Origin: Loxodes magnus
Lineage: Eukaryota; Ciliophora; Karyorelictea; Loxodida; Loxodidae
Assembly (NCBI GenBank): GCA_946699065.1
Contig: CAMPDV010000715.1
Location: forward strand, 62,001-126,000
Length of the DNA: 64,000 nucleotides
Direction of reading: 5' to 3'
Shown here: positions 2,820 through 60,310 of the stretch, piece by piece
Position numbering within the stretch: the stretch's first letter is position 1
Layout of the letters: the number at the start of each line of letters is the position of its first letter
The notes under the pieces: generated by a model
The model's database searches: none
Told to the model about the DNA's origin: nothing
What the model saw: only the letters and a program-made list of their open reading frames with translations
Program-made: the position numbers and the translations under genes

Positions 2820-3166
2820 AGTATATCAGTTGTTCACTACAACCTTTTGAAATCAGACTCATCCATCACTACAACCATGAAATTCATACAACCTGAATTC
2901 ACATTAACAAACTCACCCCCTTATTTCACAAAACATACACCCTATTACATTATCTTTAAACCATTTGTACCAACTTATATTAATTAAAACTTACCATCTA
3001 TTTAATTAAACCGTAAAAAACAAACTTACATACTAATATTAACTCCAATTATTACATCCTAAAATTAATAACTAATTCTTAAATACCTCTTTCTAATATT
3101 GATTAAAATATATATTACTATCCTTAACTTTATAAACATATGTCAAATTGTATATTACCACCTGAT
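2820..3166 (-). other. Chain of GT...AG segments with 3-nt gaps, non-repetitive part, copy 1
   Basis: Read on the minus strand, this stretch divides into GT...AG segments of about 18-30 nt separated by three bases. Examples are GTAAGTTTTAATTAATATAA-G, then TTG, then GTACAAATGGTTTAAAG; and GTATGTTTTGTGAAATAAG, then GGG, then GTGAGTTTGTTAATG...TTCAG, then GTT. It continues the adjoining tandem array, but its segments are unrelated to each other in sequence, so tandem duplication alone does not explain the spacing. Splicing is an inference; the parse is less clean at a few points, for example 3,040-3,120. Confidence 0.5.
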
Positions 3167-3600
3167 AAATAAATACTTACTAGCTATAAGTTAAGAATAT
3201 TAAAATGCTTACGTCCTATAAGTTAAGAATATTAAAATACCTTACCTAAGTTAAGAATATTAAAATAACTTACCTAAGTTAAGAATATTAAAATAACTTA
3301 CCCACTATAAGTTAAGAATATTAAAATGCCTTACAATCTATAAGTTAAGAATATTAAAATAACTTACCTAAGTTAAGAATATTAAAATAACTTACCATCT
3401 ATAAGTTAAGAATATTAAAATACTTACAAACTATAAGTTAAGAATATTAAAATAACTTACAATCTATAAGTTAAGAATTTTAAAATGCTTACATTCTATA
3501 AGTTAAGAATATTAAAATAACTTACCTAAGTTAAGAATATTAAAATGCTTTACGTCCTATAAGTTAAGAATATTAAAATGCCTTACCTAAGTTAAAAATA
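3166..3600 (-). repeat. Tandem array of 13-14 intron-like units, copy 1
   Basis: On the minus strand each unit starts GTAAG, runs through a T/A-rich middle (TTTTAATATTC), then a TTAAC branch-like motif, and ends TTATAG or TTAG. Units are about 28-31 nt long and vary by one or two bases. Spacers are exactly 3 nt (GAC, AAT, ATT, TTT, ATG, ATT, TGG, GAC, CTA) or exactly 0 nt. Zero-spacer junctions read TTAG|GTAAG. None of the 3-nt spacers is TAA, TAG or TGA. The array lies just downstream of the minus-strand TRIM-like gene. The repeats are certain; that they are spliced introns is inferred from the signals and the fixed spacing. Confidence 0.85.
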
Positions 3601-3690
3601 AAAGTTTAGAAATGTAACGTACGTCCTTTAATTAGATTATGTACCATCTACTTATATTATAAAAAATTAACTCCATCTCATTTATAACTA
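3601..3690 (-). other. Putative junction of TRIM-like exon and intron chain, copy 1
   Basis: On the minus strand, after the ubiquitin-like domain (ending near the GAGATGGA at 3,673-3,680), the sequence parses as GTTAATTTTTTATAATAT...GTAG, then ATG, then GTACATAATCTAATTAAAG, then GAC, then GTACGTTACATTTC...CTTAG, and then the first array unit. Copy 2 gives the same parse with different bases (spacers ATG and GAG). A plain TAA at 3,667-3,669 could instead end the protein, if TAA can terminate here. Confidence 0.4.
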
Positions 3691-5451
3691 TTCTCCATCC
3701 ATTATATCATAAGATTGCATTGTCTAGTCGTAGTCTAACTTATTGCCATTCTTATAGATAGCCAATGACCATCAGTATAAATTTGTTTATTCTTCTATCA
3801 TTTCACATAGCTATTCGATAGTAGTGTCTTGCTTAACCGTAAGCTTCACAGATTTATTATTCGGAGATACTATCGATATTATGGTTTCATATTTCATTAT
3901 CCTTTTTCGTAACTCATTCATCTAACTAGTTAACTATTCTCTTTCCTCCAATAAACTTTATATCTAGTTCTCCAAATTAGATCTCTCCTATTTCAAACTC
4001 TCTACCTACTAACTCAACTCACGATTCTAAAACTTATTATCATTATTAGCCTCAGTATCCACATTCAAATCACTCTCTATCTAACTATTTTACTCACTCA
4101 ATCTATTGATTTAAACCCTTAAATGATCATTGTCCTCTCTCTAAAGATCAAACTCATTCTACAACTCTCTTATCCTTTACTCTTTCTATAAATCTTGCTT
4201 TTCATACTACTACTATTAAGATATATTCCTCTAGTCCTTCTCTTAAACAACCTACAACAAATCACTTATTCGCAATTGATATTAAACACTCTCACTCGAT
4301 AAACTTTTTATTTACTCACTCAAACTCTTAGACTATTCCTCTAACTTATCTTTATAACCCTATAACTCTAAATCCTTTTACTACAAGATAGCATTCTACT
4401 ACTAGATCAAACTCCTTATTTATAATTATTGATCCTCTATTACTTTCTAGTTACGAGATATTTATTCCCTCAAGTCAGTCAACAACATATCCTTATCTCT
4501 TATAACCTAAAGCAACTTTTAGATTTATTCTTCACTTTTCTAATTGACATTCTCCTATGATTTAGCCTACAACTATAACTCCTTTCATAAATGCTATATA
4601 GTTCTCTAAAAAGATTATTTCTATTCTCTAACTCGCAACTCCTATAGTGGCTGAATCTCCTTCATAATTTTCTCAAAGACCTAAACTTCCATATTCTTTA
4701 AACTAAGAATAGCCTTATACTAAGAATATTTTTACTCATCCTTTATTCACTTCTCTTACAACTATACCTCCAATCTCTCTATCTCCACCTTCTTTATCTC
4801 ACATTACTATATAGTAACCTATTACATTAACCCGATACTCTCTAGTCTTTCAAAAAGATTATTTTAACCCATTTCCTACCTACACTATTCACCTTAGTCC
4901 TATACTCTTATCACCAACTCCTCACATGCTTACTCTAAACTTCTCTTGATTTTTTAATAGATCTACATTATCTTTTTCCAATTTAACTTATAATCCTCAG
5001 CCAACTACTTTTATCATTGACCCAAAACAGTAGAATATTGCTTCAACCTCTCCTTTATTACACTCAAAGTCATTTACATACGAACTTACATAATAGGAAC
5101 GATCTCCTCTTATTTACAGTATTGATGATCCTCATGAGAATCCTATTGACATTTTTCACATATTAATGCACTGTCACTCAGACAATACAATGATAAAATC
5201 TCATTATGCTACTAACATATACTCAATTAACTTTATTTGGACTCCTCTTAAAGATGTAAATCTAGTATTTACAATTCTTCAATTGGTCTATCAGTGATAA
5301 TGTTGTGCTTTCTACAGTTGAACATCTATTGGATATTGTAGAAACTCCTCAGGCATCTCTCACAGATGATACATCCACAATCACATCTTCTAGGCTTTTT
5401 AAGCTCTTAGTTGAACTTTTCTTCACAAGCTTCACATTAAGATGCTTGCAT
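3670..5451 (-). CDS. RING / B-box / coiled-coil / ubiquitin-like (TRIM-like) protein, copy 1
   Basis: One uninterrupted frame of 594 codons runs from ATG at 5,451, with TAA/TAG as Gln. Residues 6-49 carry a RING-type cysteine pattern: C6-x2-C9, C23-x-C25 (or C27), C30-x2-C33, C46-x2-H49. Residues 79-109 form a textbook B-box: C-x2-H-x7-C-x7-C-x2-C-x4-H-x2-H. A Gln/Glu-rich coiled coil fills about 120-520, and the last 70 residues look ubiquitin-like (TVKQDTTIEQLCEMIEE, then YKNGNKLDYD, IMDGEQLQMR). TRIM proteins usually act as E3 ubiquitin ligases; a C-terminal ubiquitin-like domain is an uncommon addition. In-frame TGAs at 5,014-5,016, 4,747-4,749 and 4,585-4,587 are conserved in copy 2. The end is uncertain: TAA at 3,667 or splicing into the intron-like chain. 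It is divergent from the ABC gene, with about 140 bp between starts. Confidence 0.85.
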
Positions 5452-5588
5452 TTTATTTTTTGAATAAACTAAAAATTAAAAGAAACTAAATTTATGGCTT
5501 AAGAGATACTTAGATATTAATAGTATTATTTTATTAACTTAATACTTAATAAATAGAAGAATAATTACTATTAAAATTAATATATAAA

Positions 5589-8500
5589 ATGGAAGAATTT
5601 TCCCTCTAAAATATTTGCTATATAAATAATATTTTGTTACATAGCCAAGGGATAAGATAAATTTTAGGAAAATATCGGAAAATTAGTAAGCTTAAATAAA
5701 AATTTAGTAGAATAGCTAGATGATACCTATAATAGACTCTAGTAGATAACTAATTTTAATACGTGTGACAGAATATCAAAGAAAAATAACAAATATTTCC
5801 ATCATTACAGAATCTTAACTTAAGTTATAATCATATCCAAGGCTTCTTGCTTATTAACTACAAATAACTGAGAAAGTTAGTAGTTAGTTTTAACTAAGTT
5901 TAACAAATTTTCTGAAATGCTGATCTCTTAGAGTTAACAGAAAGATGATATTTCCTGAAACTAGTTGAAAAACCTAGAAGGACTGGAGAACTACATTTAG
6001 TGCTTGATACTTGCTATATTGAAATAGAGTCGTAAAAGAAAACGCAAGATAGCATATTAATTTTGGCTTATCCACAAAAATAGACTTGAAATAGAACTTC
6101 TTTAATCGTAAATATTATCCGTACTTAGAATAGAAATTAAAATTTTAAGAATAGATTAAGAGTCACTAACATTGGATAAGTATGAGTAACAAAATGAAAA
6201 GCAAACATTTTTAAAGCAACTAGCAAAAAGAATAAGTGCATGGGGATTTTTTTATAGTAGCATGTAGGATAGAAACATTAGATTGTTCTAATTTTAATGA
6301 ATATATGAAAAATTAGAGATTAAATTAGCATGTTGAATATATTGCTGTTCTCTTAGGTGAGGAAAGTAAAATAACAAGATATTAAAAAGCTCATATGAAG
6401 AAATTCAAGCACCTTTAAAAATGATTATAGTTAACCATTAAAAATGCTATTAATCTTAATGTATAATACCAGGGTTAATTTCTAGAGAAGTGCAAAATTC
6501 TTTTTAATTTCCTACTTATTAGCCAAAATCCATTCTTCAGGTATGAAAATCTGCATCTCACCTCGTACTTATTAGTTATAATAAATTATTATAATCTTTA
6601 TAGCTCCGTATGTGAAATAAATTTATCATTAATCTAGCTGAGAAAGAAAAAAAGAACAAAACTTAAGAATAGCAAGAAATAACAGAACCAAAGTAAGAAA
6701 AAGCGCTCAATAGAGTAAAGGTAATCCATTCGCCATTTCTGAAATATTTAAAAGAATTAAAGATATTCAGATTAGTCTAAATCTTAATCAAGAAAGTAAT
6801 TTAAAGTACTAATAGCCAATAAAGTAGAAGCAGTTTTATTAATCAAGACATTTAAATTGAATAATTTTTTTCATAGCTACTTAAGATGAAAAATAGCAAT
6901 CAAGAGGCAGAATTTTAAACAGGTTATTTTTAAAAAACTTAAAATAGATCTACTGCTTCTTTTATCTTCAGGTGAATATTTAAATCATAGAAAATAAATA
7001 CTTCTGATAAATTTATAGAGTAGATAAATTTAAATATACACAACAGTTTTTCCAATAATGAAAGCTAAACTAAGATACAGTAAATAAGTAAAAATAACTG
7101 AAAATTAGTAAGGTAAAACAACTAGAAGTAAGGCAATTAAACCTTGGTATCCTTGAAGAAATAACTAACTGAATGCCTTTAAAGTTTTTTTGAAATAAAC
7201 GAGTCCAAAAGAAGTTAAACTTAAAAGGATAATAATAGATAGGTAACCAAAATGCTTAAAGCAAGTAGAAACATCTTGAAGATAAATTTTTATCTCCTTT
7301 CAATTTATCCACATTTTCAATCTTTAGACTTTATCAAAGATACTAATTAAAGTAAAGTGATAAACTAAGTTAAAAAGTAAGAATGATCAAGATATGAGCG
7401 ACAGGCAAAACAGTAATCGGAGTAAAAGCAAAAAATAGTAAAAGTAAATTAGACAAAGGATATAAAGCCAGGCTACTCAAAAATTTAAAGAACTTGCAAA
7501 TCCTAGTCAAATTTAGAAAATTATTAAAACTCTAATTTGCAAATATTATAAGTAAGCAGAAAAACTTACTTAAGTTTTAAAAAACCTACTATGATATTAA
7601 AATAAAAAGGAATTAAAGCAACGCCAAATGAATATAAGAGCTTAGGGAATAAATCAGTTTCTCTATTAGCTTGAGAGAAGCATCCTAGAAATCAGGGTTT
7701 CATAGAAAGAAGGCAAGTGTCTTAGATTAAAAATGATAACAAAAAAGAAATAAATAGTAGGATTTGGCTAAAGAATACAAAATCAAATAAGAAAAGCCTA
7801 AATATTAAATTTCTCGTTTATCTATATAAGATAATACTCCAAAAAATAAAGCAATAAGGAATTGACAAAGCACTTTGAAAGAAACTTTAGTATCTAGAAA
7901 AATATTCAAAGCATATTAACTAAACTACAATAGTAAATACTTGATAAAAAGTACTAAAAAAGTTAAAAAAAATTAAAGAAAAAGATTAAAGAGCAGTTTA
8001 CTAAGGAAATGAAATTGAGATAATTTGTCGAAAACAGGAAATAAAAGCGAAAAGAGTAGTCAAGGTCGAAGAGTAATATGTAGGAGAGTTTAAATTAATC
8101 TATTAGTAACTCCAAAATTAGTATTTAAAGATGTTTTAGAACTTTCAGATAGAAATAAAATGATTATTATTATAATCATTTTTTAAAGTTCGAAAAAGTA
8201 AATAAACCAGTTCGTACTGCAAAAAATGAGCAAAGAAGCCTTTAAACTCAGAGATGGTCTTGAATAAAAATTTTAATAGTTAGATTGAAAGGTGAAGTAG
8301 TTTCAATAAGTATGATCAGCTAATAAATTACTCATCAATCTTATAGAACATAATAAAACCTATTTCATGAACCAAAACGTGTTTAGACTAGTAGATAATT
8401 TTCTCATTTTTAAAAGCTTAGAAATGAGTTAACCTAATCTTAATAACTATTTTCTTACCAGCAAAGATTTCAGACATATTCCCCTTCAATTACTTCTTCA

Positions 8501-9772
8501 ATCAAGCTAATAATGTCCTTCGAGAATCTCTCATTTTTTGTATACAAAGCGAAATTCTTCCCTCTTTTATGTTGGGTAAAGGAATAATAAAATTGATGAT
8601 CTCTTAAGCAGCAATTCTGCTAGTACCTGATTTTAAGCAATAGCAAGACAAAATTTAATTTTTAACCTGAATTAACAAAGTTTTGGATGAAATTCTATAT
8701 GTTAAGTACTAAGCTATGAAATTAAGCTTAGCAGGATTATAAAACTTATACCTATAAATTATATAGATTTATTAATAATAAAGCCAGCTGAATTTAGATT
8801 CTCATTGTTGCATATGCTTATCCATTACCTGAATCGATGATTAAGTCAGTTTAACAGATAGCAGAAACTTAAATGATAAATATAGGAAGATGTCATTATT
8901 ATGCTTAAGCTGATATAGAGAAATCAGTTCGTTCAGATAAAGAAACTGAAAATGGTTAAATTAGCTAAGGGAAAATTGAGTATAGAAACGTATAATTGGA
9001 TTATATACCTTAGCTTTCTAATATACTCAATTTAGTTTATTTCATAGTTTAGGCTCATTAGGAAATAGGAATAGCAAGCAGAACTGGATCGGAAAATCAT
9101 CCATTTTCTTATGATTATTTAGAATAGTAGAAGTAGAAAATGGAAAAATTATTATTTACAGAATGAATATATAAGACATATCTTTACATTCACTAAGAAA
9201 TAGTTAAGTGTTATTCCTCAAGACCCCATAATATTTACCGGAAGTTTGAGAATGAATTTAGATCCCTTTGATGATTATGATGATTAAGCAATTATTAGTA
9301 CTTGCATAAATTAATATATTGGAAAAGTTTTAAAGCTAAAATGATAATCTATCAAGTGAAAAAGAGGATAAAAAAGAAAGTGGTAAAGATGTAATGGAAT
9401 GTAAAGTACTCGATAAATAAATACAGGAGTAAGGACAAAACATAAGTGTAGGAGAAAGGCAGCTAACTTGTATAGGATGAGCAATATTAAGGTAATTTAT
9501 TATATTTCAGATGCAGCAAAATATTGGTAATGGATGAAGCAACAGCTTCAATTGATTAGAAAGAAGATTAATTTAAACAGTAACTAATAAAAGATAAATT
9601 CTAAGATCGAGCAGTTCTAACTATAGCGCATAGAATTCATAGAATTCATAAAATTCAAGGATATGATAAAATACTTGTCCTCAAGCAAGGTAGAGTTACC
9701 TTATTTGATACACTTAAAAACGTGATAGGAAATTTAGAAGAGGAAAGTTTGGAAATACAAGGAAGCAAATGA
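5589..9772 (+). pseudogene. ABCC-type ABC transporter, frameshifted, copy 1
   Basis: Homology to ABCC/MRP full transporters is visible in pieces. Near 6,730 there is a TMD1-end motif (PFAISEIFKRIKDIQ). From about 8,460 comes TMD2 (KISDIFPFNYFFNQA), then NBD2: Walker A around 9,070-9,100 (ASRTG, then GKSS in another frame), LFRIVEVENGKI, VIPQDPIIFTGSLRMNLDPF, signature SVGERQ near 9,445, Walker B ILVMDEA near 9,520 and the AHR H-loop. Frameshifts fall within Walker A and just before VIPQDP, and both recur in copy 2, so the damage predates the duplication. A 19-nt intron (9,492-9,510) interrupts the NBD. NBD1 was not recognised. Substrate unknown. TGA codons here fall at Ala and Arg positions of the family, as expected for decay. 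The start at 5,589 and the middle are uncertain. Confidence 0.7.
9492..9510 (+). other. 19-nt intron in the ABC transporter NBD
   Basis: GTAATTTATTATATTTCAG lies between the codons for AILR and CSKILVMDEA. Removing it joins the signature and Walker B segments in one frame. The same 19 bases occur in copy 2 at 59,462-59,480. This sets the size scale for introns in this genome. Confidence 0.75.
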
Positions 9773-9961
9773 ATTTATATATAAAATTAAAATTTATGGT
9801 TATATAAATAAAGAATTTACATTAGACTAAAGAACAGTACTATTATTAATAACTTTTTATTAATTTAATAAAAATCTTTCAACGCTTATAAACGATGATT
9901 ACTCTGTTTAGTATTTTTTTAATTTCAACAAATAATAGATCTTTACAATTAGGTGAATAAA

Positions 9962-10348
9962 ATGATAAAAAAGAAAAACGTAAGGATTTAAATACCTGAT
10001 TTAGAATACATCTCAGTAAAATGAAAGCTTTTATAAAGAAAAGAAAATTTAGTTAATAAACTTAGAAATATATTGCTGCAGCAAGAGAAATAAATTAAAA
10101 TTTAATTGCGCTTTACTTAGAAAAAAATGTAGAAAGAGAAATAAAGCAGCATTTTAAAACTTTAGCAATCTATTTTTCTTAAAGAAAAATGTTATAATTA
10201 TACTAAGTTCTACATTAAAAATAAATCTCATAAAGGAAAATAGATAAACTTTATATCCTATAAAATATTAGATTTTTAAATAGATGGTTATAATGATATT
10301 TTATATTTCTCTCTATTAAAGCAAAATATAAAAGCATAACAAATATGA
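9962..10348 (+). CDS. Small basic protein of unknown function, copy 1
   Basis: A frame of 128 codons runs from ATG (9,962) to TGA (10,346-10,348), rich in Lys, Gln and Leu and probably helical (for example NLVNKLRNILLQQEK). One internal TGA (SVK-W-KLL) would be Trp. The ORF is the same length in copy 2 (59,924-60,310), but that segment is nearly identical overall, so conservation carries little weight. No family was recognised. In a code without fixed stops this could be chance; the support is its composition and the terminal TGA. Confidence 0.35.
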
Positions 10349-11221
10349 ACCTTATAGCTACTAGCTCTATTATAAGAAATAAATAAAAACTTGCTAATTT
10401 TAAATTTAGATGCTAATATTTTTATTTATTTCCAGTTATTTAATTTATAGTTATTTTCTTCTTGCTTCAAGTTCTGTATAATTGATAGTGACTTTAGTAA
10501 TTATTAAATTTAGTAGGATGCAAAATTATAGAAAGAAGACTTAAAGTATTAATAAATAAATACTTAAGTGCTTTAATAATAAATTATCTATATAATTAAG
10601 CTAATATTGCTCAAATCAAATGCTAAACCTTTAATAAGGCACTCAATACATTTATTTACTTTACTGAGGAAAGATAAATCTAACTCCTACTGTCTTCATA
10701 AATCTAACTTTGAACTATGAACTTAAAATTTAGCCAATTAAAAATAAATTATCAATCATACTTTAAAGCAAAAGAAAGGTGTATACTTGCTCTGCTTAAC
10801 TAAGTTATTTCTTAATTAATAAAAATCTTTTAATTTAGACTTTTTAATTTTCTTCTTTAGTAAAAGAAATATAGTATTAATGCTTAAGAAAGCTGCTATT
10901 AAATTATAAAGCATTTCTATATTTAGAAGTTAATATTAAAGCATTGCCAATAAATCTTAAGCTGATAATTAATTTCCCTTAAAATATATCTCTCTTTATA
11001 CAAATTCTAGATAACTTAAGAAATTAATTATTAATTAAATAAAAATTAGTTCTACCAAATAGAAAACTTGAAAGTGATAATATATAAAAAGATTTAATTT
11101 AGATAAATGAAAAACTAAATTACTTTAAATCATAAAGTAATAGTTATCTTAGAAAATATTTAATATGGGCTATTATATTAATATTACTTATAAACACTTC
11201 TTTTCTATTTTTACCTTCAAA
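10349..11221. other. AT-rich stretch, no gene recognised
   Basis: Short AT-rich reading frames only, and no motif seen. It is almost identical to 60,311-61,180 in copy 2, including non-coding-looking positions, which indicates recent duplication or gene conversion rather than selection. Confidence 0.5.
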
Positions 11222-11965
11222 TCAAAAATACAAAAGCAAAATTATTTTAACTTTAAACATTAGAGTTAAAAACAGAAAAGAAATCTAGATATATCTAACT
11301 TATGTTTCATTTTTACTCAAGAACGTTTCTTCAAAGTCATAGTCATGAGATATTTTGCAAATTTAAGTAAAAAGCATGCTATAAATAATTTTACATCTCT
11401 AAGACTTTAAATTCTTTATATTTAAAATTTTAACATAACATAACATAATTTATTAAAGTGACTTCACTTTTATTTGGTTTACCATTAATTAAGTTTAGGA
11501 GTTTTAAGATGTAAATGAATCGTTCAGGTCTTCTTAAAAGCTTGCTTCTTCTATTGCATATCGTGTTGTACAGATTTAACCTTTCTTGATCTTAGGAATT
11601 TTTCTTCAATCTCAATTAGGTCTCAACATCTTCCTCGTCCTTCTTTTTTGAGTATTTACTATGTCCAATAGTAATTAATCTCCACCGAATAATTTTTTCT
11701 TGCAAAATCTTCCTTTTGGAGAACAGTATAATTTTTTCATATTATTTAATATCTTTTAATTATTAGATTCTTGCTTCTTCTGAAAATACCAGCATCTTCT
11801 AAGGATGTGTCCAATCTTTTAACAATAAAAACATCTTGTTTTACAATATTTCGAGTTATGTCCTATTTTTAAGCATTTTTAGCATTTTTAGCATTTTTTA
11901 AAATTGACAATTTTTTTCCAATCCGAAAAAAGAATTTATATTTTGTTCTTCTATTATAGGACCAT
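11222..11965 (-). CDS. Retroelement-type protein with two CCHC zinc knuckles, copy 1
   Basis: The minus-strand frame from ATG at 11,965 to TGA at 11,222-11,224 gives 247 residues without a shift. It contains two classical CCHC knuckles (C-x2-C-x4-H-x4-C): CLKCLK-type CQKCLKIGHNSKYC, then CFYCQKIGHILRRC. They are followed by a Lys/Arg-rich tail (GRFCKKKLFGGD, QKRRTRKMLRP). Such paired knuckles are typical of nucleic-acid-binding gag/ORF1 proteins of retroelements; some cellular RNA-binding proteins share them. No reverse transcriptase lies next to it. Reading frames upstream of the ATG (to about 12,090) also look protein-like in a shifted phase, so the start may lie further upstream. Two TGAs fall in PNWDWRKIP as Trp. 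Confidence 0.65.
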
Positions 11966-14200
11966 TATTAAGATTAGAATTGTATGGTTTATTAATTTCT
12001 ACTATTTTTTGCTCTGTTTTTCCAGTTTTTAATTACCTTGCATCATCAAGGTTTTAATGCTTATTTCCGTTTTTAACCATTAATTTTGTTTTATAATTAT
12101 TGTACAGTAAAAGTTAGAGAATCTAATGGTTAAATAAAGTCTAGAAGTGATAGTTGCATTTTTTTTCCCCGCTTCTAGGGAGTATATTTCGATTAGAGAG
12201 TTTGATGGTTAGATTTGGTGTTAGTTTTTGGTAGATGATTTCTTATAATTTTATATATATAAATTATATATTAGAATATCAAAGTTAGACTGTTATACTT
12301 GTTTGAAAAGTAAAATAAATGAAATAATTTAATCTTCTTTACGAGTTTATTTAGGAATAGCAATAAGATATAGTATTTAAGAATATTAACTAAAATATTA
12401 GTTTTAAGCATAAAAATAAAATTAAAATTAGTATAGCCAAGTATTAGGAAATAAAGCATGATAAATAGGTAAGTTAAATTAATAAATCTATTGCATCAAA
12501 AAGATGATTTGGCAATAAAAGCATTTGTAATTTCTAAGAACTATACACATATTTTAAATTAGTGTTATTGAATATTTGATTTATGCATCTAAAATTGAGT
12601 TAATTTATGGTATAATAGTAATTTAGTTTAAATAATATAATTAGAGCCAAGAAAATGAAAGTTTATAGTGAAATTGCAAGGATAGACTGAATAATATATG
12701 AAAGGCACTTATAATAATAAAATAATTAGTTTAGGTAAATAGTACATAAAGGAAATAATAATTGAATATCATAAGGTAAAGTGTTACAACGAATAGCTAT
12801 TTATAGATTTGTTTTAATATCTATTAGTATATGCTAAATAAAGTTAAAATTATAAAGTATTTACTTATAAATTTAAGAGTTACTAAAATAATAATATCAA
12901 GGTTAAGTCCCTTATGCTATCTAAGCATATAAATAAATATAAAATTCTTTAGTAAACTAGTTTTCATTAATAATTAATTTATCTAATATTAAATAAAAAG
13001 TAGACATACAGTTAGCTGTTTAAGGATTATTAAAACTTAAATTCAAAAAGCTTAAGAGAAATAAATGCTATATTAAATAGAATTAAGAGCATATACAAAA
13101 TTAAAACTATTATACCATATAATAAAAATATTATTTCAGAATTCTCACTATCTAAACATTTTTATATGACCAAGTGCAAAAATATTATTTACAACTTTTA
13201 GATGGTTAAAAGAAATATAATGAGCAATGTGTGTATTAAATAAAATTAAAATAATAACTAAACTAATAATAAAACTTAACTAATTTTAGGGGTAAAATTC
13301 ATTTTATTATAAGTGACTACTCTGGATGAAAATCTATTTAAATAACTATTTATTATTATTTTAAAGTTAAAATTATTATGATCTAGTTAATATAGTATCT
13401 CTATTGAAGGATATAAGCAAGTCTTTAATGGTCATTAATTAACTTAAATTATTATAAAATAAAGATAAATTAAATTAAATTAATTAAATATCCTGGATAT
13501 ATAAGAGCAAGCAGTTATTAACTATAAGAGTAAAATAACTAATTTATTATCATTTAAGAGAAAATCAAGTTTATTAATGTTTCACTTTATTTGCTTATAT
13601 ACTTCTTAAGCTTTACATTTTTCTTTTACTATTATCAAAATTGGAATTTAAGAGAGCCCGCTATTTGAATGCAATGAAATCTATGATTGGAAAAAATAGT
13701 TATCTAAATTAAAAAAATCTAAATATTTAAAAAATTTATAGAAGAGTGAACTAAATTTAGAATTAAGTGCTAAAATAATTTTATTAATACCTTAATCAAT
13801 AAAACTATATTATAGAAGCTAATAAAGCATAGCAAGTAGACTAGATTGTTAATCTAATTTAATAATTAATATAATTTAAATTTAAATCTAGAAACTAAAA
13901 CAAAGATGATTAGTCTTAAAGTTTATATCAGTCTTTTATCTTAACCTTCTAGAGCTATATTAGCAGTTCTAAAATTAGCAAAATTCCTTATGAAGTTGAA
14001 TTTCCTCTTTTAGATAAAGGATAATATTTCCTCTTAATTTTTAAAATTAAATCAACTGGCTTAAGTACCAGTACTTGAGGAAGGGATTTTTTGATAACTG
14101 AAAGTTATGCAATTTTGATGTGAAATTTAAAAATAAAATTATAAAATAACTCTATCCTAGAGATTTAATAGAAGGAGCTAAAGCAGATTAGCCACTAAAT
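11966..14200. other. Mostly non-coding; end of the shared block
   Basis: A minus-strand ORF of 62 codons (12,271-12,459; hydrophobic, MLYFLILGYTNF) has a 60-codon counterpart in copy 2 (62,222-62,404) that differs by a 6-bp deletion. That is compatible with a small membrane protein but also with chance. From about 12,460 to 13,430 the two copies are almost identical. A short (TTAAA)n run lies at 13,462-13,485. Homology with copy 2 is last visible at about 13,520, where copy 2 leaves the window. Nothing was recognised at 13,520-14,200. Confidence 0.4.
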
Positions 14201-14209
14201 TGATATCAT

Positions 14210-14660
14210 ACTAAGCTCCTTCCCAACTTCTACAGCACTGAAAGCACAGCAGCTTATGAATTGGTTTTAATCTTTGACAGATGTTAAAGCACCCTTCAAT
14301 TCCCAATCAAGAGAATCATCAGCATTTTATTCATATTCATATATTCAGTTCTATACCCTGTTTAAGTATCCTTGTATCCTAAGCAAATCTTTCAGAATTC
14401 TTCGTTAGTCAAATCAGTGAAGTGGTTAACAGCGAATCTTATGATCATGTTTCTCTAGTTCTAGATTTTAATCCAGTAATAGTTGTCATGGAAAATATTG
14501 TAGCTTTGCTATATCTCTTAGAAAGAACTATAAGTCTTGTTGGATTTCTTATCGAAGGCTTGGAATTAAATCTATGATTCTTCAGCACTTTCTTGAAACT
14601 AAAATTTTCCCATCGAAGCTCTTCCGTTATTTTTTGCTGCAAACATCACTAAAGCGACTA
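14210..14660 (-). pseudogene. Papain-family cysteine protease fragment (inverted block A)
   Basis: The minus strand matches the 5' part of the protease at 28,190-28,656. It covers the I29 propeptide inhibitor region (near 14,380-14,600; sequence around DNYYWIK) and the beginning of the mature enzyme, then stops abruptly at about 14,210. The catalytic region is absent. Several codons of the I29 motif are mutated relative to the 28-kb copy. It is a truncated relic whose upstream sequence (14,660-14,890) is shared with block B. Confidence 0.8.
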
Positions 14661-14889
14661 AACTGTTTAGGACAGGCAATAATTTACTAATTAGCTAGGT
14701 AGAAGGCATTGAATTTATTAAATTAGGTATTATTAATTGGCTAACTAGTAAAATAAAGTTAAGTTTAATAATCTAAGCATTAAATACACTTATTTATGTC
14801 TAATACTTTACTAGTTTAAGGTTTTAATCCTTTTAGCTTGCTTATTACTTCATTCATTTTTCATTCTTTGTTGATTACAGGGTAAAGGG

Positions 14890-15720
14890 TATAATCTTTT
14901 TAGTTAAAGGGAAAATTATATAGCTTTGTTATGGAAAAGAGTGTTAGATTATTCTAGAATTGATAGTGTAAATAGCAATTAAGAGGTTAGGCTAAGATAT
15001 TTTTCCAGTTCAGGTAATGTGTAAGAAAGAATTTAAATGGGAAAATCCTTCTAATAGTCTGTTGTTGGTATACATCAGCATGACAATAAAGCTACAGTTA
15101 TGAGATATAAGTGAATGCCTTACTCTTTTAATTTAAGCTTTTGATGGAGCAAGAAATGGGTGAATATCAAAAAGCTAAATAAAAACTTATCAATAAACGC
15201 AGTCTAATTGATATAGCTACATCAGCTACTTAATTTCTTAGATTTAGCTAGAAATATTCAAGTTTCTGAACTAAGTTCAAAAGTAAAGCATCAACAAATT
15301 CCTAAGAATGAACAGAAAGTGTTCAAATATTAGAGTATTAAAGAAGAAATGTCTAAGGTATAAAAGCTTAATAATTATAAGTTATGATGAAAGGGAAAAA
15401 AGTCTGAAAACTGGTAGTTCAAGAAAGGAGTTATTTAGTTCATGGATGTAAAATAAAGCAGATCTGTTGAGATTTAGTAATACTGAAGGTATTTTAGAAG
15501 TTTTTGATATTTTACCAAATTAGGACTTGAGATTAAGAGGCTTAGTTGTAGAGTGAAGGAAGATATATTTAGTCTAAGTAAATGAATAAAATAAACCAAA
15601 TGAAGAAGGGTAGAAGTTGCAATAACTAAGCAAAAACTTATTTCAATATCAAGTAAAAATTAATGCTTCAAGAAGTGAAGTAAGCCTTTTTAGACTTGCT
15701 TAAGTTAGACTAAAAATAGA
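14890..15720 (+). CDS. Unknown protein family member A, divergent from the protease relic
   Basis: This plus-strand region is homologous to the minus strand of 27,110-27,960. Translated fragments align between the two: MEQEMGEYQKA with MEQEMSEYQNI, TSATQFLRFSQKYSSFW with TSPAQIPLFNQKYSIFW, and later LEV(F/Y)DI. The Trp in QKYSxFW is a TGA in both (15,267-15,269 here), which supports sense use. Frames shift between fragments, so one or both copies are damaged or contain unrecognised small introns. I do not recognise the family. Confidence 0.45.
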
Positions 15721-27109: not shown

Positions 27110-27960
27110 ACTTTTTCTTCAGTCTCTTTCTCTCTTGAAATTTAATTTTTCTTTTATAAAGAAATAAGTCTTTAAATGCTATTACGCTTACTAGTCTTTA
27201 TGATTTGGTGGATTTATCCCCTTTTTTGACTAAACGTGCGTCTGTCTTTACTCTATAGCTAAGATTTTTAAACATAAGCCTATTCTCAGGCCATAAATGG
27301 AAAAATATCATAAACTTCTAAAGCGTCTTCTGTTTCGTAATTCTTAACAGACTTAATTCTTTTAACAATCATAAACTAAGAAGCTTCTTACTTGAGCTAC
27401 CTGTTTTCAAAATTTATTTACTTTTAGCTAAACTCATAATCAGTTCTTTTATTGCTGAGATATTTCTTCTTAAATGCTCTAACATTGGAGCATCTCAGTC
27501 CATTCTAAGGAATTTTTTGATACTTAAGCGTTTTAAATAAGCTCAGAAAATAGAGTATTTTTAGTTAAATAAGGGAATTTAAGCAGGTGATGTAACTATA
27601 TAAACTAGACTCTGAATATAGATATATTTTTACTAAATATTTTGATATTCACTCATTTCTTGCTCCATATAATAACATAAATTTAAAGAGTAAGGTACTC
27701 ACCTACTTTTCATAACTGCAGCTTTAGAAATAGTCATGCTGATATATACAAACAAGATCTATAACCAACAACAGACTATTAGAAGAATTTTCTTATTTAA
27801 ATAGCTTCTTACATATAAAAAGCTGGAAAGCATTTCTAAGCCTAAACTTTTAATTTCTATTAACACTATTCATTTAAGAATAATCTATCACTCTTTTTCA
27901 TATAAAAGCTATATAATTTTACTCTAACTATTAAATAAATAATACTCTTTACCTTGTTCT
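27110..27960 (-). CDS. Unknown protein family member B, divergent from the protease
   Basis: The minus strand is homologous to 14,890-15,720 plus. Readable fragments are YYMEQEMSEYQNIQQKY, QIPLFNQKYSIFWAYLKRL, DAPMLEHLRRNISAIKELI, PENRLMFKNLSYRVKTDAR and VIAFKDLFLYKRKIKF. TGA codons read as Trp at KSRWVPYS, SIFWAYL and RMDWDAP; the SIFW one is shared with copy A. Fragments lie in more than one frame. Function unknown. Confidence 0.45.
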
Positions 27961-28656
27961 CAACTCATAGAAGAATGGAATAGAAGCAAAAACTTATAAA
28001 TGAATGAAGGAAATAAATAGTTAAAAGGATTTAAGTATTAACCATTAAAAAATAGACATCAGTAAGAGAATTTAACACTTAGATTATTAAATTTTAATAC
28101 TTAATTTTACTTTAAAATAGGCTACTCAAGAGAAAAATCTCTAATTTAATAAATTAAAATAACCTCAACTAAAACAATTATTGCATTATTCGCTTTCGTA
28201 TGCAAGGCTTAGTCGATTTGGTGATGTTTGCAACACCAAATAACGGAAGAGCTTTGATGGGAAAATTGAATTTCTATGATAGTGCTGAAGAATCATAGGT
28301 TGAATTCCAAGCCTTCGCAAAGAAATTCAACAAGACTTATAATTCCTTCGAAGAAATGTAGCAAAGATACAATATTTTCCATGACAACTATTACTGGATT
28401 AAAGTCTAGAACTAAAGAAATATTATCAAAAGATTAGCCGTTAACCACTTCGTTGAATTGACTAACGAAGAATTCAGAAAGACTTGCTTTGGATACAAGG
28501 ATACTTAAACAGGGCATAAAACTACATATATGAATATGTATAAAATTTAGCTGATTCTCTTGATTGGGAATTGAAGGGAGCTTTAACATCTGTCAAAGAT
28601 TAAAACCAAGCTGCTGTGCTTTCAATGCTGTTGGAAGTTTGGAAGGAGCTTACTTC
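27110..28656. repeat. Inverted duplicated block B
   Basis: Reverse-complement partner of 14,210-15,720, containing the head of the protease gene, the intergenic region (27,960-28,190) and the unknown divergent gene. Homology stops inside the protease at about 28,656, where block A is truncated. Confidence 0.8.
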
Positions 28657-40016: not shown

Positions 40017-41705
40017 ATATTTAAAAAATTTAGTTTTATAAATTAAAAAGAGTAATTTATTAGTAACATTATAAAATATAATTATAATTAACAATTGTAT
40101 CATTTAAAAAACTATTATTCAAATTATGTCTTAATTATACATTTTTTAGCTCACATCATTGTGCACAAAGCATAAACTTCAAATTATATCAAACCTTTAT
40201 ATTTTTAAATCATAGATATTCAATTACTATATTCACATTTAGAATTAATCAATATCCAAATTCTAAATTTATCTTCTATTCAAAAATTCCTTAAACAAAT
40301 CAAAAAACTAACCAAGTCTTTATTAGTGGATCAACAGATATTCATAAGTTCTAACTTGAAACATTTTAACTTTTTTGCTAATTAATATGTTTTTTCACTC
40401 ATCTATTTGTTAAATATTTATATTCAATTTATTTAACAAAGAAAAATACATTTTTAGTTATAATTTTAGCAATTCTCAATTCATAAATATACATATCAAA
40501 TCATTAATTGTCTTTTTATTACATTATCTTTACCTATATTAAATATATAACTAAATTCATCAATTCTTATTTAAAAAAAACTAAACATTCTATCAAATCA
40601 CTAATAGGATCAATATTTCAAATCCATTATTCAAATATATATCCAATATTTACTATTAAAACACTAACCTTTTCTTCATCTTTCTAAATTCTTACCAAAA
40701 ACAATAAATTAATCTTATAACTATTTTTAAATATTAAACATCCTCTAATACTTATTATCTAATAATTTTTAAGTCTATCATTATTTTATTTTTATTATCA
40801 TTTTTTTAGCCTAAATAATAAAATTTAAAAAATCCCGTACTATAAATCTTCTTTAGTATGAAATGCTGAACAAAAAGCAAAAGTTATTTTTTTAGTTTAA
40901 AAATAACTAAAAGTGAATATAAAAATCTTTCTTAGACATATTATATTCAGTTTTTTAAAATTTTCTTTTATTTTCACAAAATCTTTAAAATTTCTTTTGA
41001 ATTAAAATGACATTTTGATTTTCAAGTTTTCTAACATATAACATTTAAAAAAAATTTAATTTTTTAACTTGTCAATTTCTTAACTAAAAAATAATTTTTA
41101 TCCACTCTTTAATTTCCAAAAAAATTAAGATCTTTTAATTATATTAAATCTTTTAAAAATTTAAATAAACTAATTCACAAATTCTCCCTAAAACTTTTCG
41201 AATTCTGTAATAAAAAGCATATCAATTAATACTTATTATTGAAAATAAAATTTAACTCTAACATAAAATTAAAATGTTTCGCTTTTTTTTAAATTAAAAA
41301 TCCTTAAAATATTTCTATCTTATTTGCATATAATATATTAAAAAAAAATTTAGTTTTAAATATATGATTTTTCAAAACAAATTTCTAATATATTTCAACT
41401 ATTTTTTCAAAACATTTTTTAAATTTTAACTTCTTCATATATAGACCTAAAATAGCAAAAATAAATCAATTAGAAAACTTTGTGTCATTACTTAAAATTT
41501 TAATTTAGAAAAATTATATAAATACTTAGCACTCTTTACATTTTATTAAATTTTATTATGACTTGCATCTCTTTATCCATTTTTTACTTTATTATTCCAT
41601 TAAATAAAGATCGAACTTGTGCTAATCGATAAGTTAAAAAAACAAAATAAAATTTTCGTAAATGTTTTAAGCAAAATTTAATAAAAAACAAAAAAATATC
41701 ATACC

Positions 41706-42378
41706 AAAATTGACCTAATTAACCAAATTAACTGAATTGAACAAATTAACTAAAGTGACCAAATTAACCGAAATGATCAAATTAACCAAATTGACCAAAT
41801 TAACAGAATTAACCAAATTTTACGAATTAACCAAATTATACGAATTAACCGAATTAACCGAATTAACTAAATTAACCAAATTAACTGAATTGAACAAATT
41901 AACTAAATTAACTAAATTAACCAAATTAACTGAATTGAACAAATTAACTAAATTAACTAAAGTAACCAAATTAACTAAATTATACGAATTAACTGAATTA
42001 ACTAAATTTACCGAATTTACTTAATTAACCGAATCGAGCAAATTAACTAAATTAACCAAATTAACCGAATTAACCAAACCAATCAAATTAACCAAATTAA
42101 CTAAATTAACCGAATAAACCGAAATGACCAAATTAAGCGAATTGAACAAATTAACTAAATTAACTAAAGTAGCCAAATTATACGAATTAACCGAATTAAC
42201 CAAATTAATCAAAATTTACGAAAAAATCGAATTAACTAGATTAATCGAATTGAACAAATTAGCCAAATTAACTAAAGTAGCCAAATTAGCCGAATTAACC
42301 AAAATAAACAAATTAACTGAATTAACCAAATTATACGAATTAACCGAATTAACCAAATTAAACGAATTAACTAAATAA
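41706..42378. repeat. 9-bp satellite, (A/G)AATTAACN, about 70 units
   Basis: The unit AAATTAACC / GAATTAACT repeats in one phase for about 670 bp. The plus strand reads Lys/Glu-Leu-Thr triplets (KLTELTKLT) with interspersed TACGAA (YE) variants; the minus strand reads Leu-Val-Asn triplets. Both strands are open, which is a property of the unit itself. It is probably a minisatellite rather than a gene. Confidence 0.9.
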
Positions 42379-52869: not shown

Positions 52870-53220
52870 TATATCAGTTATTCACTCTAACTTTTTGAAA
52901 TCAGACTCCTTCCTTACTACAATAATGAAATTCTTACAACCTGAATTCACATTAACAAACTCACCCCCTTATTTCACAAAACATACACTCTATAACATTA
53001 TCTTTAAACTCATTTGTACCAACTTATATTAATTAAAACTTACCATCTATTTTAATTAAACTGTAAAAAACAACCTTACATACTAATATTTACTCCAATT
53101 ATTACATTCTAATTAAAATATCTAAACTTAAAATACTTTTTCCTAATATTGCTAAAATATATATTACTATCCCAAACTTATAAACATATGTCAAATTGTA
53201 TATTACCATCTGATCAATAA
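52870..53220 (-). other. Chain of GT...AG segments with 3-nt gaps, non-repetitive part, copy 2
   Basis: The minus-strand parse matches copy 1: GTAAATATTTATTGATCAG, ATG, GTAATATACAATTTGACA...ATAAG, TTT; further on TAT, GTAAGGTTGTTTTTTACAG; ATG, GTAAGTTTTAATTAATATAA-G, TTG, GTACAAATGAGTTTAAAG; and GTATGTTTTGTGAAATAAG, GGG, GTGAGTTTGTTAATG...TTCAG, GTT. Substitutions and indels relative to copy 1 mostly leave the GT, the AG and the 3-nt gaps in place. Confidence 0.5.
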
Positions 53221-53570
53221 ATATTTACGTTCTATGCAGTTAAGAAATATTAAAATGCCCTACCATCTATAAGTTAAGAATATTAAAATGCTTACAAACT
53301 ATAAGTTAAGAATATTAAAATACTTACCAACTATAAGTTAAGAATATTAAAATACTTACTAACTATAAGTTAAGAAATATTAAATGCTTACCATCTATAA
53401 GTTAAGAAATATTAAATGCTTACCAACTATAAGTTAAGAATATTAAAATGCTTACAAGCTATAAGTTAAGAATATTAAAATACTTACTAACTATAAGTTA
53501 AGAAATATTAAAATGCTTACCCACTATAAGTTAAGAATATTAAAATGCCTTACCTATTTTAAAAAATAAA
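53221..53570 (-). repeat. Tandem array of 10 intron-like units, copy 2
   Basis: Ten minus-strand units start GTAAG (once GTAGG), contain TTAAC and end TTATAG (once GCATAG). All nine inter-unit spacers are exactly 3 nt: TGG, TTA, CTT, TTG, ATG, TTA, TTG, TTT, ATG. Unit lengths vary between 29 and 31 nt while the gap stays fixed. Unit number and spacers differ from copy 1 (13-14 units), so the array has been rebuilt since the duplication. Confidence 0.85.
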
Positions 53571-53637
53571 AGCTTAGAAATGTAACTTACCTCCTTTAAT
53601 TAGATTATTTACCATCTTTATATATTATAAAAAATTA

Positions 53638-55422
53638 ACTCCATCTCATTTATAACTATTCCCCATACATTATATCATAAGATTGCATTGTCTATTTGTT
53701 CTATAACTCATTGCCATTCTTATAGATAGCCAATGACCAGGAGTATAAATTTGTTTATTTTTATATCATTTTCTTTAGCTATTTGATAGTAGTGTCTTGC
53801 TTAACCACAAGCTTCACAGATTTATTATTCGGTGATACTATCGATATTATGGTTTCATATTTCGTTATCCTTGCTCGTAACTCATTCAACTAGCTCGTTA
53901 ACTATTTCCTTTCCTCCAATAAACTTTATATCTAGCTCTCCAAATTAGATCTCTCCTATTTCAAACTCTCTATCTACTAACCCAACTCACGATTTAATGA
54001 AATATTATTATTATTAGCCTTAGTAACAACATTCAAATCACTCTCTCTTTAACTATTTTACTCACTCAATCTATTGATTTAAACCCTTAAATTATCATTG
54101 TCCTTTCTCTAACTCTCTATCTGCTAACTCTACAACTCTCTTATCCTTTACTCTTTCTATAAATCTTGCTTTTCATACTACTACTATTAAAATATATTCC
54201 TCTAATCCTTCTCTTAAAAAACCTACAACAAATCACTTAATCGCAATTTATATTAAACACCCTCACTCGATAAATTTTTTATTTACTCACTCAAACTCTT
54301 AGAATATTCCTCTAACTTATCTTTATATCCTTATAACTCGAAATTCTTTTACTATAAGATAGCATTCTACTACTAGATCAAACTCTTTTTTTATAATTAT
54401 TGATCCTCTATTACTAATTAGTTAAGAGATATTTATTCCCTTAAGTCAATCAACAACATATCCTTATCTCTTATAACCTAAAGCAACTTTTAAATTTATT
54501 CTTTACTTTCCTTTTTTACACTATCATATGATTTAGCCTAAAACTATAACTCCTTTCATAAATGCTATATAGTTCTCTAAAAAGATTATTTCTATTCTCT
54601 AACTCGCAACTCTTATAGAGGCTGAATCTCCTTTATCATTTTCTCAAAGACCTAAACTTCCATATTCTTTAAACTAAGAATAGCCTTATTCTAAGAATAT
54701 TTTTACTCATCCTTTATTCACTTCTCTTACAACTATATCTCCAATCTCTCTATCTCCACCTTCTTTTTCTCACATTACTATATAGTAGCCTATTACATTG
54801 ACCCGATACTCTTTAGTCTTTCAAAAAGATTATTTTAACCCATTTCCTACCTACACTATTCACCTTAATCCTATACTCTTATCACCACCTCCTCACATGC
54901 TTACTCTAAACTTCTCTTGATTTTATCATAGATTTATACTATATATTTAATATTTATCGCATAATCCTCAGACAACTACTTTTATCATTGACCTAAAACA
55001 GAAGAATATTGCTTTAACCTCTCCTTTATAACACTCAAAGTCATTTACATACGAACTTACATAATAGGAACGATCTCCTCTTATCTACCACATTTATGAT
55101 TCTTATGAGAATCCTATTAACATTTTTTACATATTAATGCACTGTCATTCAGACAATACAATGATAGAATCTCATTATGCTACTAACATATACTCAATTA
55201 ACTTTATTTGGACTCCTCTTAAAGATGTAAATCTATTATTTCCAATTCTTCAATTGGTCTATCAGTGATGATATTGTGATTGTTGCATATGAACTTCTTT
55301 TATATTTTGTAGAAACTCTTCAAACATTTTTCACAGATGATACATCCACAATCACATCTTCTAGGCTTTTTAAGCTCTTAGTTGAACTCTTCTTCACAAG
55401 CTTTGCATTAAGATGCTTGCAT
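53638..55422 (-). CDS. RING / B-box / coiled-coil / ubiquitin-like (TRIM-like) protein, copy 2
   Basis: ATG at 55,422 opens 595 uninterrupted codons, one more than copy 1, although the DNA differs at many places. Retention of the whole frame with indels in multiples of three points to selection. RING (CKACEEEFNQ...CDCGCIICEKCLKSFY...CNNH), B-box and ubiquitin-like end are all kept. In-frame TGAs of the coiled coil match those in copy 1, but the TGA before TGG in the ubiquitin-like domain of copy 1 is TCC (Ser) here. Likely an E3 ligase of the TRIM type. The end is TAA at 53,635 or splicing into the intron-like chain. Confidence 0.85.
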
Positions 55423-55561
55423 TTTATTTTTTTTAATAAACTAAAAACTAAAAGAAACTAATTTTTTTTGCTTAAGAGATACTTAGATATTAAAAGGATT
55501 ATTTTATTAACTTAATACTTAATAAATAGAAGAATAATTACTATTAAAATTAAAATATAAA

Positions 55562-58500: not shown

Positions 58501-59734
58501 TTTTTGTTTACATAGCGAGATTCTTCCCTCTTTTATGTTGGATAAAGGAATAATAAAATCGATGATATCTTAAGCAGAAATTATGCTAGGACCTGATTTT
58601 AAGCAATAGCAAGACAAAATTTAATTTTTAACCTGAATTAACAAAATTTTGGATGAAATTCTATATGTTAAGTATTAAGCTATGAAATTAAGCTTAGCAG
58701 GATTATAAAACTTATACCTATAAATTATATAGATTTATTAATAATAAAGCCAGCTGAATTTAGCTTCTCATTGTTGCATATGCTTATCCATTACCTGAAT
58801 CGATGATTAAGTCAGTTTAACAGATAGCAGAAACAGAAATTTAATGATAAGTATAGAAAGATGTCATTATTATGCTTAAGCTGATATAGAGAAATCAGTT
58901 CGTTCAGATAAAGAAACTGAAAATGGTTAAATTAGCTAAGGGAAAATTGAGTATAGAAACGTATATTGGATTATATACCTTAGCTTTCTAATATACTCAA
59001 TTTAGTTTATTTCATAGTTTAGGCTAATTAGGAAATAGGAATAGCAAGCAGAACTGGATCGGAAAGTCATCCATTTGCTTATGATTATTTAGAATAGTAG
59101 AAGTAGAAAATGGAAAAATTATTATTTACGGAATGAATATATAAGACATATCTTTACATTCACTAAGAAATAGTTAAGTGTTATTCCTCAAGACCCCATA
59201 ATATTTACAGGAAGTTTGAGAATGAATTTAGATTCCTTTGATGATTATGATGATTAAACAATTATTAGTACTTGCATACATTAATATATTGGAAAAGTTT
59301 TAAAGCTAAAATGATAATCTATCAAGTGAAAAAGAGGATAAAAAAGAAAGTGGTAAAGATGTAATGGAATGTAAAGTACTCGATAAATAAATACAGGAGT
59401 AAGGACAAAACATAAGTGTAGGAGAAAGGCAGCTAATTTGTATAGGATGAGCAATATTATGGTAATTTATTATATTTCAGATGCAGCAAAATATTGGTAA
59501 ATGGATGAAGCAACAGCTTCAATTGATTAGAAAGCAGATTAATTTATACAGTAACTAATAAAAGAGAAATTCTAAGATCGAGCAGTTCTAACTATAGCGC
59601 ATAGAATTCATAAAATTCAAGGATATGATAAAATACTTGTCCTCAAGTAAGGTAGAGTTACCTTATTTGATACACTTAAAAACGTGATAGGAAATTTAGA
59701 AGAGGAAAATTTGGAAATACAAGGAAGCAAATGA
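55562..59734 (+). pseudogene. ABCC-type ABC transporter, frameshifted, copy 2
   Basis: Same motifs as copy 1: KISDIFPFNYFFNQA near 58,430, the split Walker A near 59,055, VIPQDPIIFTGSLRMNLD near 59,190, SVGERQ near 59,425 and the AHR H-loop near 59,605. It shares the Walker A and pre-VIPQDP frameshifts and adds its own: an extra A after ILV (GGTAAATGG near 59,498), which breaks Walker B. It lacks the 12-bp duplication GAATTCATA that copy 1 has near 9,640. The 19-nt intron at 59,462-59,480 is intact. Confidence 0.7.
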
Positions 59735-59923
59735 ATTTATATATAAAATTAAAATTTATGCTTATATAAATAAAGAATTTACATTAGACTAAAGAACAGT
59801 ACTATTATTAATAACTTTTTATTAATTTAATAAAAATCTTTCAACGCTTATAAACGATGATTACTCTGTTTAGTATTTTTTTAATTTCAACAAATAATAA
59901 ATCTTTACAATTAGGTGAATAAA

Positions 59924-60310
59924 ATGATAAAAAAGAAAAACGTAAGGATTTAAATACCTGATTTAGAATACATCTCAGTAAAATGAAAGCTTTTATAAAG
60001 AAAAGAAAATTTAGTTAATAAACTTAGAAATATATTGCTGCAGCAAGAGAAATAAATTAAAATTTAATTGCGCTTTACTTAGAAAAAAATGTAGAAAGAG
60101 AAATAAAGCAGCATTTTAAAACTTTAGCAATCTATTTTTCTTAAAGAAAAATGTTATAATTATACTAAGTTCTACATTAAAAATAAATCTCATAAAGGAA
60201 AATAGATAAACTTTATATCCTATAAAATATTAGATTTTTAAATAGATGGTTATAATGATATTTTATATTTCTCTCTATTAAAGCAAAATATAAAAGCATA
60301 ACAAATATGA
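59924..60310 (+). CDS. Small basic protein of unknown function, copy 2
   Basis: Same 128-codon frame as copy 1 (9,962-10,348), ending at TGA 60,308-60,310. Near-identical DNA, so no independent support. Confidence 0.35.

Follow-up and report, generated by a model that had tools for sequence, protein, structure and literature searches.

Layout of the gene and its predicted exon-intron map

On its minus strand, the 64,000-nucleotide stretch of Loxodes magnus DNA analysed here (the window) carries a gene that can be followed from a B-box zinc finger open frame at 5014-5775 (PF00643, 33.8 bits against a cut-off of 24.1; exon limits approximate) to an exon at 3672-4584 encoding a coiled coil and a ubiquitin-like domain. 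The latter domain was recognized within 3683-4584 by PF11976 (27.9 bits, cut-off 23.8) and by PF00240 (25.9 bits, cut-off 25.4). The end of this exon (...ATG AGA TGG A) was set by the parse described below, and it stops one base into a codon, that is, in phase 1. Frames stay open when TAA and TAG are read as glutamine. The coiled-coil/ubiquitin-like frame is open over approximately 900 nt, and short exons with lengths divisible by three are confined to the region after the ubiquitin-like domain. A protein search with the coiled-coil exon as query yielded no match at E 0.001 among 780 candidates, and a Pfam search with ten other open frames from the window likewise gave no match at E 0.001.

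The 3' part of the gene, from 3671 to 2869 (minus strand), is predicted to hold 27 introns of 19-36 nt, comprising 13 near-identical repeats and 14 unique introns, separated by exons that are mostly 3 nt, sometimes 0 nt, once 6 nt and once 9 nt. Three unique introns (24, 19 and 36 nt) come first, at 3587-3671, with the one-codon exons ATG (3647-3645) and GAC (3625-3623) between them. The first donor, GTTAA, is the anchor of the parse and was given beforehand rather than found (GTGAG in the distant paralog L056). Sequence and parse together then place 13 repeat introns, each 28-30 nt long, in an array at 3184-3586 whose units have the form GTAA[GA]...CTTAACTTATAG (29 or 30 nt) or GTAA[GA]...CTTAACTTAG (28 nt). 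The gaps between these units are, in order, GAC, 0, AAT, ATT, TTT, ATG, 0, ATT, TGG, 0, 0 and GAC, such that eight of the 12 measure 3 nt and four measure 0 nt. Another 11 unique introns (19-32 nt) follow at 2869-3183 with the exons CTA, GTG, TTAAGGATA, AAAGAG, GAT, TAT, ATG, TTG, GGT, GGG and GTT, and the last coding exon (2834-2868) is read in phase 1 and closes with a TGA stop at 2836-2834.

The original prediction had described an array of units with intron-like ends at 3166-3600, with gaps that are always 3 or 0 nt. Such an array is present, with 13 units between 3586 and 3184, and all 12 of its gaps follow the proposed spacing. However, the whole run of 27 predicted introns is longer and passes beyond those coordinates on both sides. 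Nor is the rule a property of one repeat family, since it reaches unique introns and other unit families.

A paralogous copy with 24 predicted introns lies at 52917-53639 (minus strand), as judged from sequence and parse. Its array, at 53553-53232, contains the triplets TGG TTA CTT TTG ATG TTA TTG TTT ATG, with AAC after a divergent 32-nt unit. A direct segmental duplication of approximately 10 kb joins 3277-13456 and 53238-63401, which are approximately 50 kb apart and 94.7% identical, and despite this identity the array triplets of the two copies are entirely different. Between these copies, identity is 91.6% over 1.8 kb upstream and averages 90.6% for the repeat introns, versus 34% for the triplets (all against all). 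The window also holds an inverted repeat of approximately 1.3 kb (14212-15517 and 27298-28652, 77% identical), and a satellite at 41703-42376 that is built of 9-, 18- and 27-bp units (AAATTAACC), all multiples of nine.

Spacing and length of predicted introns across related loci

Relatives of the ubiquitin-like exon were sought in the genome assembly (705,730,643 bases in 7843 contigs), where the best 150 of 560 candidates were scored; some are identical pairs, perhaps alleles. Starting from a fixed first donor, our parser links successive GT...AG introns with lengths of 15-70 nt, gives exon lengths of 0-12 nt equal cost, and rewards GTAAG-like donors and TAG, CAG or AAG acceptors. Shuffled and reversed controls reach approximately one-tenth of the score per kb. 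Counts refer to those 27 of the collected loci that have GA[GA]ATGGA before GTTAA and at least 900 nt thereafter, loci identical over the first 300 nt being counted once. Loci lacking this anchor, including L010, L011, L017, L018 and L025, stand outside these counts, and the pairs L016/L054 and L041/L047, which look allelic, are included with both members.

Among the 796 exons of the 27 loci, 176 are of 0 nt, 563 of 3 nt, 25 of 6 nt and 25 of 9 nt, and the remaining seven are of 1, 2, 4, 7, 10 or 12 nt, with one or two each. Non-empty exons are divisible by three in 614 of 620 cases, compared with 209 of 587 in shuffled DNA and 2 of 56 in reversed DNA. The lengths of the 823 parsed introns are spread over all classes modulo 3 (347, 223 and 253), which bears out the earlier argument that the array is not a protein repeat.

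The same spacing is found where introns are unique. Exon lengths are multiples of three in 10 of 10 cases in the window tail, 21 of 21 in L059 and 12 of 12 in L058 (contig C59), and each of these three stretches outscores the best of 60 shuffles. At L059 (C10:95000-96150), a gene whose ubiquitin-like match is weak and does not reach the cut-off leads into introns at nearly every codon. Twenty of its 22 unique introns are 16-21 nt and 19 of the 21 intervening exons consist of one codon, after which comes an array of 24-nt repeat introns. The longest array parsed (L009, positions 3737-7279, contig C116) packs 122 introns into 3543 nt with only 144 nt of exon, and 76 of its 121 exons have zero length. 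At L011, contig C241 ends within a 28-nt zero-gap array, and thus long intron arrays may break assembly.

Genome-wide pattern counts, in which matches inside one array, array copies and alleles are non-independent, reveal the same preference: CTTAACTTATAG N{0,12} GTAAG occurs 1194 times (three times for the pattern read backwards), and 1182 matches have exactly 3 nt before GTAAG (backwards, none). The more general paired-junction pattern ATAG-Nd-GTAAG-N{10,30}-TAG-Nd-GTAAG was run for d = 2, 3, 4 and 6. It gives 30,588 matches at d = 3 (backwards 1661), versus six at d = 2 (backwards one), six at d = 4 (backwards three) and two at d = 6 (backwards two), and several unit families are present among the first 100 matches listed for d = 3. 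The genome search recommended with the original prediction thus led to many further places, and genomic copies with a spacer of free length were not encountered.

According to the available sections of the published L. magnus study, GT-AG introns called from RNA-seq (length at most 40 nt, at least 10 reads) have a mean length of 19.3 bp and a mode of 17 bp, 93% are no longer than 25 bp, and lengths divisible by three are depleted (PMC11441545). One-codon exons and intron arrays were not found in these sections, and the word microexon is absent from the main text of that paper (PMC11441545). Unique introns of L059, mostly 16-21 nt, have lengths as published, those of the window tail are 19-32 nt, and the repeat introns vary from 26 to 33 nt but are mostly 27-30 nt. 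Repeat introns of 28-30 nt therefore exceed 93% of the published introns (PMC11441545). Furthermore, the 347 parsed introns divisible by three run contrary to the published depletion, with the 30-nt and 27-nt repeat forms weighing in. The donor is GTAAG in 525 of the 823 parsed introns, and the acceptor is TAG in 672, AAG in 111 and CAG in 40, these being signals that the parser rewards.

Elsewhere in the window, an ABC-transporter remnant of the ABCC kind (9200-9772, plus strand) has an apparent 19-nt intron, GTAATTTATTATATTTCAG. The remnant also contains an in-frame TGA, at a position where another residue is usual in the family.

Reading frame, conserved tail and variable triplets

Read in phase 1, the tail of the gene is ELYVEWGLM(K/D)ES... 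or a close variant, joined in frame to the upstream exon and closed by TGA in 21 of the 27 loci. Among the exceptions, L001 and L052 end inside the array, and the parse puts L012, L016, L035 and L037 out of frame. In phase 1, tail exchanges between family members either leave the amino acid unchanged or replace it conservatively, as in GAG/GAA and in YVEWGLM versus YLEWGLI. We also considered phase 0, in which each triplet is a codon and the first ATG is the start. In its favour, TGA accounts for only 3 of 322 array triplets (stop and triplet statistics cover 24 of 28 arrays, from the 27 loci and L056, in which all triplets are 3 nt and there are at least four of them), and the tail reads NYMLSGV-stop. 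Phase 0 was rejected, as it offers no join to the upstream frame and the tail exchanges AGT/AAT and GTT/GAC, which are synonymous in phase 1, alter amino acids there. The single-codon exons of the original prediction keep their 3-nt length, but a triplet does not coincide with a codon in the frame that fits. The codon-position make-up of the triplets is ambiguous on phase, because the two yardsticks disagree: lnL values for phases 1, 0 and 2 are -1208, -1264 and -1285 with Prp8, and -1249, -1199 and -1301 with the gene's own coiled-coil exon.

The published account, in the sections available, gives UGA as tryptophan or stop in L. magnus, whose macronuclear (MAC) assembly is 706 Mbp, and describes depletion of coding UGA for approximately 20 codons before the stop (PMC11441545). 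The Prp8 match of the genome has five TGA codons, all of which align to tryptophan of a solved Prp8. If phase 1 is correct, TGA inside arrays must specify tryptophan as well. By our own count, arrays lie approximately 23 codons or more before the stop, and they contain 17 TGA codons in phase 1 versus 15.2 in shuffled data, which gives no sign of selection against TGA. It had been pointed out earlier that no triplet of the window array is a stop. Although none is TGA, this carries no weight given that the fitting phase is 1 and TGA can be read as tryptophan. A search of the genome for an intronless copy of the spliced tail, using the joined string TATATGTTGNNTGGGGTTTGATG, gave no match. The predicted tail peptide would, in tryptic form, be of the ELYVEWGLMDESDFK type.

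Exons are conserved where introns have diverged. The distant paralog L056 has 59% identity in the ubiquitin-like exon and a different repeat unit of 30-36 nt with gaps of mostly 3 nt. Even so, its last seven one-codon exons (AAT TAT ATG TTG AAT GGG GTT) agree with the reference tail (AAT TAT ATG TTG AGT GGG GTT) at 20 of 21 bases, where six exons come from the automatic parse and the seventh was placed by hand before an intron that needs a GC donor. The corresponding intron lengths are 20, 38, 25, 25, 26, 28 and 25 nt versus 23, 33, 21, 30, 19, 24 and 21 nt, and the interiors of these introns are 50-59% alike versus 43-56% for shuffled sequence. On contig C241, a zero-gap array that resembles a plain satellite (L010) ends with TAT ATC TTG AAT GGG GAC plus TTATT, separated by introns (hand-placed). 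The contrast is small among 23 close copies, where tail exon identity is 0.949 versus 0.909 for intron interiors.

Within arrays the pattern is reversed, in that the codons are hypervariable, with near-maximal diversity, and the repeat introns are uniform. When 136 repeat introns, all 29 nt long, are compared, 28 positions have 0-0.26 bits of variation and one has 1.02 bits, whereas the triplet positions of the same set have 1.87, 1.28 and 1.82 bits. TAA, TAG, GTA and AGT are absent from the 322 array triplets (expected 7.6, 13.0, 5.7 and 4.1), as if rival splice sites were barred. However, TAT (12, expected 13.1) and TGA (3, expected 1.4), which are also able to make such sites, are not avoided and speak against this reading. 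Equal neighbouring triplets number 28 of 298 versus 24.8 in shuffled data, which gives no sign of fresh duplication of single units. When 25 arrays were compared (L016, L047 and L056 left out), triplet strings of length 2, 3 and 4 common to different arrays showed no excess beyond chance (104, 10 and 1 versus 102.6, 6.4 and 0.3 shuffled). Strings of these lengths repeated within arrays number 39, 19 and 11 versus 22.7, 5.4 and 1.1, and one array, at L052, contains two copies of a seven-triplet string (TTG-AAC-GAT-GAT-AGA-CAT-TTT type), which amounts to a block duplication. These observations suggest that arrays grow by block duplication and undergo rapid turnover, and both could be driven by selection, by a mutational process or by exchange between copies.

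Interpretation and relation to known systems

Splice signals, a spacing rule that includes unique introns, exons conserved although the introns between them have diverged, an unbroken reading frame, many further occurrences in the genome, and hypervariable codons amid uniform introns are all present in the DNA itself. Given these features, we consider it probable that the 3' part of the gene consists of single-codon exons split by minimal spliceosomal introns, and that the array is a minisatellite of intron-plus-codon units. The original prediction of tandem introns with 3-nt exons gains sequence-based support from the unique introns of like spacing and from the exons kept in the distant paralog, as well as from the genome-wide preference for 3 nt and from the tiny introns that RNA-seq has revealed in L. 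magnus (PMC11441545, sections available). Splicing in RNA and the inclusion of array codons are what we infer from this evidence, as are the order of splicing, the mode of array growth and any diversifying role.

Duplication of one unit would insert another intron that can be removed, together with a single amino acid in frame, and a unit that lost its codon would leave AG|GT, a zero-length exon. Both changes would be frame-neutral, and therefore arrays could expand, contract and diverge with the protein left intact. Splicing probably proceeds from the 5' end by intron definition, in which case the next donor would always meet a normal upstream exon. The codons would be joined in phase 1 between the ubiquitin-like domain and the conserved ending ELYVEWGLM..ES..stop, and the joined stretch should be short and different from copy to copy. 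Joining any donor to any later acceptor would keep the frame, so that skipping would never shift it.

More tentatively, the arrays might constitute a codon-cassette system, in which a hypervariable stretch is encoded one codon per exon and identical introns are put to two uses, always in frame. The introns might provide homology for exchange between codon positions within an array and among gene copies, and might also act as interchangeable splice units, with the result that the stretch could be rearranged in both length and sequence, in the germline and also, where units are skipped, in RNA. B-box/ubiquitin-like proteins would then bear a diversified recognition tail. We offer this only as a possible extension.

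Another reading, which we judge unlikely, accepts the unique one-codon exons as real but has the array cut out in a single large composite intron or a small number of them, with the triplets rarely or never reaching mRNA and the array persisting as a tolerated minisatellite. Array donors and acceptors are all alike, which should make skipping mechanically easy, and both the lack of selection against TGA in arrays and the greater than species-typical length of the repeat introns fit this scenario. However, unread triplets need not keep a length of 3 nt, yet the gap after the 422 repeat introns is 3 nt in 281 cases, 0 nt in 136 and another length in only five. The 3-nt length is held while the triplet letters are near-saturated and intron lengths range from 26 to 33 nt, although passive copying of the gap is conceivable, and exactly 3 nt is kept in other unit families too.

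It is very improbable that the arrays are plain satellite DNA that resembles introns by accident and remains unspliced. They are tandem repeats by all criteria, zero-gap arrays extend for kilobases, and a repeat without an interrupting TGA is open to unspliced reading too. Against this, non-repeated introns follow like spacing, unit borders are constrained (417 of 422 gaps measure 3 or 0 nt), the satellite-like L010 closes with a like one-codon tail, and exons are conserved where introns diverged. Ciliates are well known to excise short DNA elements. That the units are short IES-like elements removed in nuclear development nevertheless seems least credible of all, given that one unit variant does have inverted ends (TAAGTTA...TAACTTA) but borders are constantly GT and AG without a TA repeat, variants with GTAAGCA or GTAAGTAT are without inverted ends, and the units are still present in an assembly that matches the published somatic genome in size, for which the available sections report that classical IESs were not detected (PMC11441545).

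If single-codon exons are indeed spliced from these arrays, they would divide coding sequence into exons more finely than in any other case known to us, with L009 as the extreme, and would represent a novel means of gene construction and variation. A spliceosomal intron could then multiply in tandem, since every copy would be spliced out and contribute one codon, a possibility relevant to intron gain and to how the spliceosome handles neighbours that are 0-3 nt apart. In our judgement, an ordinary aligner is unlikely to place reads across several exons of 3 nt.

Open-licence PMC literature on tiny exons, clustered or ciliate microexons, tandem introns and intron gain did not include this architecture in recognizable form among the matches listed. 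Several systems are related in part, as far as the available portions of the respective reports describe them. Micro-exon genes (MEGs) of schistosomes have long runs of 6-36 bp exons divisible by three and are proposed to vary proteins by splicing (PMC5825161). The L. magnus genes likewise string together many short exons with lengths divisible by three. They differ from MEGs, where most of the coding region is in such exons, in that only the 3' part is divided, exons are mostly 3 nt or even of zero length, and many identical introns of 28-30 nt lie in tandem (PMC5825161). Exons of 1 nt in plant APC11 and VPS55 (PMC8831610) and the 3-bp exon of RPS24 (PMC12686416) indicate that exons of 1-3 nt can be spliced, but these stand alone, or only a few follow one another, and the flanking introns are ordinary. 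Recursive splicing at zero-nucleotide sites divides very long introns at AG|GT with no exon between (PMC13149111). AG is followed directly by GT after 136 of the 422 repeat introns as well, but here the pieces are approximately 26-30 nt (one of 33 nt) and alternate with codons (PMC13149111). Intron gain by tandem duplication, introner-like elements and repeated stwintrons likewise create new introns from copied sequence, and head-to-tail introns one codon apart were not found in the available portions of those reports (PMC4974935, PMC4457414, PMC8469720). Finally, LRR genes of Tetrahymena carry arrays of 90-bp exons in which each exon is a protein repeat (PMC6564038). These too belong to a ciliate family with exon-intron units multiplied in tandem at fixed phase, but in L. 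magnus it is the intron that is repeated, with exons of a single codon (PMC6564038).
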